Shown: positions 21,831 through 34,406 of the stretch, piece by piece
Layout of the letters: each line of letters starts with the position of its first letter
Position numbering within the stretch: position 1 is the first letter of the stretch
NCBI GenBank assembly: GCA_040880805.1
Contig: JBBDHW010000027.1
Span: 94,759 to 131,173 of the forward strand
From: Acidimicrobiia bacterium
GTDB taxonomy: Bacteria > Actinomycetota > Acidimicrobiia > IMCC26256 > DASPTH01
Direction: 5' to 3'
Length of the DNA stretch: 36,415 bases
Notes under the pieces: generated by a model
The model's input: the letters and a program-made list of their open reading frames with translations, nothing else
Told to the model about the DNA's origin: nothing
Databases searched by the model: none
Position numbers and translations under genes: made by a program

Positions 21831-22709
21831 TTATGCCCTCTTCTCTTCGAGTTGGGTGGCGCGACGGTAGAGATGCTCGGCGCCGAGTCGGCGGGCCCAA
21901 TCCTCGAAGTCCGGGGTGGGAGCTCGCCACTCCCAGTCGTCCACCGTGCCGACGTCACCGTTCGTGCGCAACGTGGCGAGGTCGAGGAACAACGTCGCGG
22001 CGTCGCGCGCTGCGGCGAGCGTGGCCGCGAGCTTCGCGGCGCCCCGCACCTCCACGTCCCACTGGCGCGCGTCGTCGGGGATCGCGTCGAGGTGCTCGTA
22101 CCGAGCGAGCACGATCGCGGTGGACTTGGCGCCCCAACCCGGGAGGCCGGGGAACCCGTCGGCCGAGTCACCCACCAGCGCGAGGTAGTCGGGAATGGAG
22201 CGCGGTCCCACGCCGAACTTGGCGCGCACACCCGCTTCGTCGATAACGGTGTTGTCGCGGCGTCGGTCGACCTGCACCACGAGCGGGTCCTCCACGCACT
22301 GCCCGAGATCCTTGTCGGGGGTGCAGATCAGGACGCGCCCCACCCGCGGATCATCGCGGGCGACGGCTGCCGCCGACGCCATGCCGTCGTCGGCCTCGAG
22401 TTCCACCATCGGCCACACGGCCACGCCGAGCGCGCCGAGGGCGTCCTCGAGCAGCGGGAACTGCGTGAGCAGCTCGGGCGGGACGCCGGCGCTCGTCTTG
22501 TAGCCGGCCCAGAGGTCGTTGCGGAACGACTCGATCACGTGGTCGGTGGCCACGCCCACGTGCGTCGCGCCCTGCTCGAGCATCGCGAGCATCGATCCCA
22601 CCACCCCGCGGACGGCTGCGACCTCGATGCCGTCGTCGTCGGGGTGCGAAGGCACCCCGAAGTGATGGCGGAACAGCTCGTAGGTTCCGTCGACCAGGTG
22701 GACCTCCAC
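21831..22709 (-). CDS. 5'-3' exonuclease (PolA N-domain/FEN-like)
   Basis: 292 aa, stand-alone flap-exonuclease-type nuclease. Seen: VHLVDGTYELFRHHFG (D7 metal ligand), ATDHVIESFRNDLWAGYK, the Asp-rich ELEADDGMASAA, CTPDKDLGQCV, and the helix-hairpin-helix segment LVGDSADGFPGLPGWGAKSTA. Metal-binding acidic residues appear intact. Likely processes RNA primers or flaps. GTG 22709 is chosen because the promoter geometry and homology both start there; the frame extends further but only as antisense. Divergent from the desaturase with a 19-bp gap. Confidence 0.9.
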   Translation of the reverse strand: MEVHLVDGTYELFRHHFGVPSHPDDDGIEVAAVRGVVGSMLAMLEQGATHVGVATDHVIESFRNDLWAGYKTSAGVPPELLTQFPLLEDALGALGVAVWPMVELEADDGMASAAAVARDDPRVGRVLICTPDKDLGQCVEDPLVVQVDRRRDNTVIDEAGVRAKFGVGPRSIPDYLALVGDSADGFPGLPGWGAKSTAIVLARYEHLDAIPDDARQWDVEVRGAAKLAATLAAARDAATLFLDLATLRTNGDVGTVDDWEWRAPTPDFEDWARRLGAEHLYRRATQLEEKRA

Positions 22710-22715
22710 GGGGAG

Positions 22716-22722
22716 TACGGTA
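22716..22722. promoter_or_regulatory. Symmetric bidirectional -10 serving two leaderless genes
   Basis: The palindrome CGGTACCG (22718-22725) contributes to TACGGT on the plus strand (22716-22721) and TACCGT on the minus strand (22722 to 22717). Each is followed by exactly 7 nt and a GTG: 22729 on plus and 22709 on minus. The gap between the start codons is 19 bp. No Shine-Dalgarno fits on either side. Confidence 0.65.
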
Positions 22723-22728
22723 CCGAGC

Positions 22729-23637
22729 GTGAGGGATGCGGAACTCCTGGCCGAGCTCGAGCCCACCGGCGCGCGCCTCCTCGACCGCCATCTCAGCACC
22801 GCCAAGGAGTGGTTCCCGCATGAGTTCGTGCCCTGGAGCCGCGGGCGCGACTTCGCCGAGAGCCAACCGTTCGATCCATCGGAGGTCCCGCTTTCGCCCG
22901 GGGTGCGCAGCGCGCTCCTCGTGAACACCCTCACCGAGGACAACCTCCCGCACTACTTCCGCACGATCGTCGCGCACTTCGGCACTGCCGAGGTGTGGAG
23001 CGAGTGGAACAAGCGGTGGACGGCCGAGGAGGGCCGCCACTCGATGGTGCTCCGCGACTATCTCACCGTCACCCGCTCGATCGACCTCCGCGAGCTCGAG
23101 CGCGCGCGCATGGCGCAGGTGTCGCGCGGCGTCGTACCAAACCCCCCGACCATCGCCGACGGCATCGTGTACGTCGCGCTGCAAGAGCTCGCCACGCGCA
23201 TCGCACACCGCAACACCGGCAAGCTGCTCGGCGACCCGGCCGGAGAGGCGATCATGAGCCGCGTGGCCGCCGACGAGAACCTCCACCACCTGTTCTACCG
23301 AGACCTCGTCGCCGCCGCGATCGAGATCGACCCGTCCACCATGGTTGCCGCGATGGAGCGTCAGGTCTGCCATTTCCAGATGCCGGGCGCCGGGATCCCC
23401 GACTTCAGCAAGCATGCGCGCGCGATCGCCGACGTCGGTGTGTACGACTTCGCGTCGCACCACGACCAGATTCTCGTGCCGGTGATCTTGAAGCACTGGC
23501 GGATCGAGCAGCTCCAGAACCTCAAGGCCGCGGCCGAGCAGGCCCGTGAGCGGCTGATCCAATACATGGATCGTCTCAACCTCGCGGCCCAGCGCATGCT
23601 CGCACGCCGCGCGCGACGAGCGGCTGCCGCGATCTAA
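22729..23637 (+). CDS. Acyl-ACP desaturase (DesA type, diiron)
   Basis: 302-aa soluble ferritin-like fatty-acid desaturase of the plant stearoyl-ACP/mycobacterial DesA family. Diiron ligands by position: E70 (NTLTEDNLPHYF), E101 and H104 (TAEEGRHS), E153 (ALQELATR), E183 and H186 (ADENLHHLF). It would introduce a double bond into ACP-bound acyl chains using O2 and ferredoxin. The C-terminus is a basic helix (RRARRAAAA). Starts with GTG 22729 directly after the bidirectional promoter. Converges with the acyltransferase gene, 5 bp between stops. Confidence 0.93.
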   Translation: MRDAELLAELEPTGARLLDRHLSTAKEWFPHEFVPWSRGRDFAESQPFDPSEVPLSPGVRSALLVNTLTEDNLPHYFRTIVAHFGTAEVWSEWNKRWTAEEGRHSMVLRDYLTVTRSIDLRELERARMAQVSRGVVPNPPTIADGIVYVALQELATRIAHRNTGKLLGDPAGEAIMSRVAADENLHHLFYRDLVAAAIEIDPSTMVAAMERQVCHFQMPGAGIPDFSKHARAIADVGVYDFASHHDQILVPVILKHWRIEQLQNLKAAAEQARERLIQYMDRLNLAAQRMLARRARRAAAAI

Positions 23638-32477: not shown

Positions 32478-33413
32478 ATGGCGACGGCATACGACGAGTT
32501 CGGGCTGTTCCACGAGAACGCGGAGGAGTGGGGTCTCCCCTACGACGGCCCACCGATCGTGCGGCGTGAGCGCGTGGAGGTGGCGCCGGGTCGGTCGCTG
32601 AGCGCGCTCGTGTGGGGATCGGCGCCGCCCGAGATCGTCTTCCTCCACGGCGGCGCCCAGAACGCGCACACGTGGGACACCGTCGCGATGGCCCTCGGCC
32701 GCCCGCTCGTCGCGATCGACCTTCCGGGGCACGGCCACTCCGACCCGCTTCCCGACACGCCGTTCGCCCCGCGCGACTTCGCGGCCGACGTCGAGGTCGT
32801 CGTTCGCGCGCTCGCGCCCGACGCGCGCGGGGTGGTCGGCATGTCGCTCGGCGGTCTCACGTCGATCGCGCTGGCAGCGCGCACACCCGATCTCGTGCGC
32901 AAGCTCGTGCTCGTCGACGTGGTGCCGTCGATCAACCTCGAGCGCGCCGCGCCCATCGGCGAGTTCGTGAACGGGCCGGTGAGCTTCGCGTCGTTCGACG
33001 AGATCCTCGAGCGCACGATCCAGTTCAACCCGACGCGCTCGGAGTCGTCGCTACGCCGCGGCGTGCTGCACAACTCGGTCCAGCGCGACGACGGCACGTG
33101 GGTGTGGCGCCACCAGATGCACTGGGCGCCGGGCGAGCGGAGTGAACGCGAAGCCGTCGCACTGCCGGAGTTCGACACGCTGTGGGACGACCTGGCGGGT
33201 CTGCGTGTGCCGGGGGTGGAAATTCCGGTGATGCTGCTGCGGGGGCTCGCGCCGAGCTCGGTGCTCGACGACGACTCGATCGCGCAGTTCGGCGAACGCC
33301 TGCCCAATGGGCGCGTCGAGGAGATCGAGGGCGCGGGGCACAGCATCCAGGGTGACCAACCCGTCGTGCTGGCTCAGCTCGTGGGCGAGTTCCTCGACAC
33401 CGCCGACGCCTGA
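32478..33413 (+). CDS. Alpha/beta hydrolase (Ser nucleophile)
   Basis: 311 aa. Oxyanion segment [13 protein letters not shown] (55-67), DLPGHGHSD (81-89), nucleophile elbow GMSLGGLTS (S123), acid region SSVLDDDS and catalytic His H288 (GAGHSIQ). Close in layout to MhpC-type C-C bond hydrolases and esterases. Substrate unknown. Its last 40 bp overlap the 3' end of the opposite-strand membrane protein gene. Confidence 0.88.
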
Positions 33414-33817
33414 CGCCCCCCGAGCAGCCGCGCCGCGACTGCCGCGATCGCCCCGCACACGACCGCGGTGACGTACGCGGGCACCACGACGATGACGAGC
33501 GTTCCCACGAGCTGGTCCTCGAAGCGCAGGTCGGTGCTGTTGTAGGCCACGATCACCAGGACGAGGAGCGGCACCGCCCCGATGAGCGCCGCGAGCGCTC
33601 CCGCCCCGATCCGTTTGGTGATCCATCCGGTGATCACCGCACCGAGGGCGAGCCCGAACCCGCCACCGAAGGCCCAGAGCACAGGCTCGGCCACGTTCCT
33701 GCGCCCCGGGCCGTTCACGGTCGACTCCAACGAGGCCGCGAGCACTGTGAGGAGCAGCGTGGCGACGACGGCGATCGCGGCGCCCAGCCACACCGCACGC
33801 CAGTCCTCGGTCCGCAT
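33374..33817 (-). CDS. Small integral membrane protein, unknown
   Basis: 147 aa from ATG 33817. Four hydrophobic segments: AVWLGAAIAVVATLLLTVLA, VLWAFGGGFGLALGAVITGW, ALAALIGAVPLLVLVIVAYN, LVGTLVIVVVPAYVTAVVCG. Both ends appear cytoplasmic. I do not recognise a family. Starts 7 nt after TATTCT on its strand (leaderless) and is divergent from the HD-domain gene by 19 bp. Confidence 0.7.
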   Translation of the reverse strand: MRTEDWRAVWLGAAIAVVATLLLTVLAASLESTVNGPGRRNVAEPVLWAFGGGFGLALGAVITGWITKRIGAGALAALIGAVPLLVLVIVAYNSTDLRFEDQLVGTLVIVVVPAYVTAVVCGAIAAVAARLLGGRQASAVSRNSPTS

Positions 33818-33823
33818 GTGGGG

Positions 33824-33830
33824 CAGAATA
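33824..33830. promoter_or_regulatory. Symmetric bidirectional -10 serving two leaderless genes
   Basis: CAGAAT on plus (33824-33829) and TATTCT on minus (33830 to 33825). Each is followed by exactly 7 nt and an ATG (33837 and 33817). The gap of 19 bp and the one-base offset are the same as at 22716-22722. No Shine-Dalgarno on either side. Confidence 0.6.
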
Positions 33831-33836
33831 GGTGGC

Positions 33837-34406
33837 ATGACGACGACACCTGCAGCCACCACCTCTCCGTTCACGCGGATGGACGAGTCCACCGCCGACG
33901 AGTGGGCTGTGATCGCCCGCGAGTCCATGGCCAACCGCGACCGCATCGCCGAGCGCGTGCTCGGCCTGCTGCGCAGCCTCGACGAGATCACCGACGGCTT
34001 CGCGGTCGACCAGCTCACGCACTGCCTGCAGACCGCGACCCTCGCGGAGCGCGCGGGCGCCGACGACGAGCTCGTGATCGCGTCGCTGTGCCACGACATC
34101 GGCAAGGCGGTGAGCGTTCCCAACCATCCGCGCATCGCGGCGGAGATCCTGCGGCCGTACGTGCGCGAAGAGGTGCGGTGGGCGATCGAAGTGCACCAAG
34201 ACTTCCAGGGCCGGCACTACTACCACCACCTCGGCGGCGATCCCACCGCGCGCGAGCAGTACCGCGGCCACCCGTCGTACGCGCTCGCGGAGCGCTTCGC
34301 CGACGAGTGGGACCAGATCGCGTTCGATCCCGCGTACGACACGCTGCCGCTCGAGCACTTCGAGCCGCTCGTGCGCGAGGTCTTCTCGAACCCCAGCTCG
34401 TTCTGA
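33837..34406 (+). CDS. HD-domain protein, possible diiron oxygenase of the PhnZ type
   Basis: 189 aa. HD-type metal ligands H62 (QLTHCLQT), H86-D87 (SLCHDIGKA), H97, H120 and downstream Asp (D159/D164). The 24-residue spacing from the first His to the HD pair equals that in the mixed-valence diiron oxygenase PhnZ, and DQLTHCLQTATLAERAGADD resembles its N-terminal helix. The PhnZ substrate-gating Tyr and Glu are not visible at the matching positions (T52, F55). So either an HD phosphohydrolase or an oxygenase with another substrate. Leaderless start at ATG 33837. Confidence 0.82.
   Translation: MTTTPAATTSPFTRMDESTADEWAVIARESMANRDRIAERVLGLLRSLDEITDGFAVDQLTHCLQTATLAERAGADDELVIASLCHDIGKAVSVPNHPRIAAEILRPYVREEVRWAIEVHQDFQGRHYYHHLGGDPTAREQYRGHPSYALAERFADEWDQIAFDPAYDTLPLEHFEPLVREVFSNPSSF

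Follow-up and report, generated by a model that had tools for sequence, protein, structure and literature searches.

A 19-bp intergenic region between two divergent genes of an Acidimicrobiia bacterium as a putative bidirectional promoter of leaderless mRNAs

The locus and its genes

The window, by which we mean the whole analysed stretch of 36,415 nucleotides of DNA from an Acidimicrobiia bacterium, contains two divergently oriented genes whose start codons are separated by 19 bp. The minus-strand gene (33377-33817, ATG at 33817) encodes a hydrophobic membrane protein of 147 residues without a confident family, and the plus-strand gene (33837-34406, ATG at 33837) encodes an HD-domain protein of 189 residues (Pfam HD, PF01966, E 3.1e-9). 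Both open reading frames look real. The codon score of the membrane protein frame is +54.5 across the frame, and the DNA upstream of its ATG does not look coding; about four membrane segments are predicted, with hydropathy peaks near residues 8, 46, 72 and 107; the HD frame scores +75.7. A Pfam search with the membrane protein gave DUF5518 as best match, below the cut-off, and a search of 60 other genomes revealed no convincing homologue, with weak matches alone at E values of at least 1e-4. Homologues of the HD protein are found in 51 of the 61 genomes searched, its own genome counted, and the named loci among them are mostly from Acidimicrobiia and other Actinomycetota MAGs.

Where do the two genes start? 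The automatic gene caller overlooked the membrane gene, keeping a competing minus-strand frame instead, and placed the start of the HD gene at 33879 and not at 33837; the starts used here, 33817 and 33837, are based on the comparison of orthologues and on the coding scores. The surroundings are very densely packed with genes, as the membrane gene and the upstream plus-strand alpha/beta hydrolase gene (32478-33413) overlap at their 3' ends by about 37 bp (33377-33413 of the window) and a PIG-L/BshB1-like deacetylase gene begins within about 20 bp after the HD gene.

Geometry of the 19-bp gap

Between the minus-strand start codon, read as CAT at 33815-33817, and the plus-strand ATG at 33837-33839, the 19 bp of 33818-33836 are the entire intergenic DNA and constitute a putative bidirectional promoter core. 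On the minus side a -10 element of the TANNNT type, TATTCT (33825-33830, AGAATA on the plus strand), lies at leaderless spacing, 7 nt from the ATG. On the plus side the corresponding element is CAGAAT (33824-33829), also 7 nt from its ATG, which has C at -12, A at -11 and T at -7 and thus lacks the T at -12, while its -11A, its -7T and its spacing are conserved among orthologues. The two hexamers overlap on opposite strands with an offset of one base, in the symmetric register that is here called +1 (NANNNTA), which is also found in symmetric -10 bidirectional promoters and is one of just two overlap registers detected genome-wide. Scored with a leaderless -10 matrix learned from the genome, TATTCT reaches 6.62 bits and CAGAAT 4.27 bits (genome median 7.4), and the low score and missing -12T of the plus hexamer count against transcription in both directions. 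Inspection of the sequence revealed no Shine-Dalgarno motif at usable spacing on either side of 33818-33836 and no TTGACA-like -35 element at the proper position on either strand in the flanks of the gap; the regions upstream of each -10 element fall within or beside the opposite coding sequence. From the -10 positions and the start codons a distance of 18-20 bp between the transcription start sites is predicted.

This geometry had been described in an earlier note on the same DNA, and its coordinates, gap length, hexamer spacings and one-base offset are all confirmed in the sequence. The note had in addition called the site a second copy of another one in the window, which lies at 22707-22731 (CAC-GGGGAGTACGGTACCGAGC-GTG), where a 19-bp gap containing TACGGTA separates a minus-strand gene for a 5'-3' exonuclease of the polA N-terminal type (21834-22709) from a plus-strand fatty acid desaturase gene (22729-23637). 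To call the two sites exact matches is an overstatement, since the hexamers TACCGT and TACGGT of the other site both carry the -12 T and serve GTG starts, whereas in CAGAAT, on the plus strand, this base is C.

Leaderless genes and short divergent gaps in the genome

The wider context was analysed in 2.63 Mb of the 3.49-Mb genome, which comprises 69 contigs. TANNNT is strongly enriched 6, 7, 8 and 9 nt before predicted starts (129, 97, 65 and 49 occurrences vs about 2-5 at background positions), and a model trained on the genome describes the -10 element as T 0.76, A 0.94, NNN, T 0.98 with spacers mainly of 6-9 nt. According to this model, about 23% of the genes are leaderless, with TANNNT 6-9 nt before the start. 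A survey of 2011 found that in Actinobacteria leaderless genes make up 19.2% on average and have TANNNT some 12 bp ahead of their start codons (PMC3160421); the present genome, with its about 23%, agrees with this picture in both consensus and distance. That survey treats single genes, the word 'divergent' being absent from its text, whereas the present case concerns a divergent pair.

Among divergent pairs with gaps of 15-28 bp, 14 of 18 are leaderless on both sides, vs 46 of 296 at 29-400 bp (Fisher P 4e-8). Their overlapping -10 elements fall into two registers alone, register +1 in 6 pairs (TANNNTA-like, gap 5+d1+d2) and register -4 in 8 pairs (ANNNTANNNT-like, gap 10+d1+d2), which with both spacers at 6 nt place the starts 18 and 23 bp apart, respectively. 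As the -10 motif enters into the choice of starts in the genome-wide model, this excess is partly model-dependent; with motif-free starts there are few pairs below about 19 bp, an onset near 19-22 bp and then a plateau without a peak. The registers +1 and -4 are, moreover, also favoured by chance, as the motifs of both strands have bases in common in these positions. A heat map of start codons and promoter cores, which is independent of gene calls, gave 12 vs 8.9 and 23 vs 15.8, a modest excess over independence, and the conclusion therefore rests on the gene-pair test. The enrichment is good for the source genome; 95 pairs from relatives, a small sample, did not reproduce it (1 of 4).

Is a gap of 19 bp special? 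The earlier note had taken its two sites as signs of a recurrent promoter form and had proposed a genome-wide count of divergent gaps, in which a sharp peak at 19 bp would support this idea. The count in 2.63 Mb does not have such a peak: modelled divergent pairs at 19 bp number 2, compared to an average of 1.2 for the remaining ten lengths from 14 to 24 bp (Poisson P 0.34), and addition of the present pair raises the number to 3 (P 0.12). What recurs are doubly leaderless pairs with short gaps, the 14 at 15-28 bp, and not the length of 19 bp, since -10-to-start spacers of 6-10 nt combined with one of the two overlap registers lead to gaps of 17-28 bp, among which 19 does not stand out. Furthermore, the strict symmetric 19-bp pattern is rare in the order, with 26 sites in 46 genomes, fewer than the 83 of a reversed control, which probably overstates chance as the TA of the pattern is replaced in it by AT. 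In the source genome the strict pattern is found three times, and one of these occurrences is a palindrome that apparently does not separate two divergent genes. A 25-bp inverted repeat of the source genome, CATAGTGGGTA-GCT-TACCCACTATG at L182:6352-6376 (G000:C42:26352-26376), lies near the start of a minus-strand open reading frame and looks like a conserved operator; a further genome of the order contains a near-identical palindrome with central GAA (G041:C417:6558).

Conservation of the HD promoter

For the plus side, 81 independent loci carrying the HD gene could be compared. In 69 of them an A-NNN-T hexamer lies 6-7 nt before an in-frame start, as compared to 2-12 loci at other spacings. 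The position of the start varies by many residues relative to the conserved protein, 8 loci having their ATG where the present one aligns, and the hexamer shifts along with the start, which speaks strongly for leaderless initiation. The base at -12 is usually G or C, as at the present site. The base following -7 is G in 47 of the 69 loci and A in 6; the A of the present site completes TATTCT on the opposite strand. The family of the source genome is not represented among the 60 relatives searched, and the closest comparison is with more distant genomes. Judged from these alignments, the promoter of the HD gene is the old, conserved one, and the perfect minus hexamer is probably local. The simplest history would be that an old one-way promoter of the HD gene turned two-way in the source lineage, the minus promoter having probably arisen because the base after -7 is A and not the usual G, so that TATTCT was completed in front of the membrane gene.

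A bidirectional promoter and its alternatives

Taken together, the sequence, the coding potential, the conservation of the plus promoter among orthologues, the leaderless signal and the enrichment of overlapping pairs make it likely that the 19 bp between the genes serve as core of a bidirectional promoter of the housekeeping sigma-70/SigA type from which two leaderless mRNAs are made. That a shared -10 region with one-base offset drives the two divergent genes, as originally proposed, is the best reading, and doubly leaderless pairs at 15-28 bp recur genome-wide. The two -10 elements would be parts of a single, almost palindromic 7-mer (C-AGAAT-A), each read from its own strand with an offset of one base, and as a consequence the -11A and -7T of one strand pair with the -7T and -11A of the opposite one. 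RNA polymerase may bind this core in one orientation or the other, a single enzyme at any time, and transcription would begin at, or 1 nt before, each ATG. We infer the transcription start sites, the exclusion of one polymerase by the other and the order of evolutionary events from this arrangement, and firing in both directions and competition by analogy to published promoters of this class.

Alternatively, the conserved HD promoter might fire alone, the minus-strand TATTCT being a chance by-product of the symmetry of the -10 element and the membrane gene being transcribed from elsewhere or barely. This would fit with the conservation of the plus promoter and with the lack of convincing homologues of the divergent membrane gene in relatives, which is also a point against transcription in both directions, and, given one TANNNT-like element, a match on the reverse strand takes just one further base. 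However, of the two hexamers it is the minus one that scores better, it lies at precisely the leaderless distance from the start of a frame with a strong coding signal, and doubly leaderless pairs are above expectation genome-wide, which makes transcription in the HD direction alone rather unlikely. More improbable still is that the starts are misassigned, with the HD protein beginning at the conserved Met at 33879 chosen by the automatic model and/or the overlooked membrane frame starting elsewhere or being no gene, in which case 19 bp would not be the real intergenic distance, as in orthologues a -10-like hexamer is retained 6-7 nt ahead of an ATG that varies in position and lies upstream of this Met, and as the coding signal of the membrane frame stops at its ATG.

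Relation to known bidirectional promoters

A bidirectional promoter at 33815-33839 would resemble the symmetric -10 bidirectional promoters described by Warman, Grainger and colleagues (PMC12825309, PMC10268837), in which -10 elements on opposite strands likewise overlap and -7T and -11A are reciprocally paired. In that class the transcription start sites are most often 18 bp apart, with 23 and 10 bp also common (PMC12825309), and the reciprocal pairing of -7 and -11 goes along with the 18-bp distance, which is given in both reports. The two registers of the present genome equal the published distances of 18 and 23 bp if both spacers are 6 nt. The published class comprises divergent start sites 7-25 bp apart, a range that would include the 18-20 bp predicted here, and most likely 33815-33839 is a further example of this already known class and not, as had been suggested, of a form particular to the lineage. 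It differs from the published promoters in that both transcripts appear to be leaderless, whereby the promoter core becomes the whole intergenic region. No literature uniting leaderless genes with bidirectional promoters was found in a search that covered few subscription papers, which has little bearing on novelty.

The site would bring together symmetric bidirectional promoters and leaderless genes, each known before, and sequence alone shows that two of the published bidirectional registers reappear in an actinobacterium. It could be imagined, as a tentative generalization, that in actinobacteria rich in leaderless genes the shared -10 region sets the minimum distance of divergent genes, with the two-way core as sole intergenic DNA in two quantised registers, and that new pairs arise through a single base change beside an existing leaderless promoter. 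Pairs so compact would couple the expression of both genes through competition for polymerase, leaving no space for separate regulation between them. A pair with a gap of 17 bp elsewhere in the genome, CAT-TGCCGTAGTCTGACATC-GTG at G000:C29:25856-25874, has one perfect hexamer and one with C at -12, the same half-imperfect form as at 33815-33839, and corresponds to the published 18-bp distance between transcription start sites.
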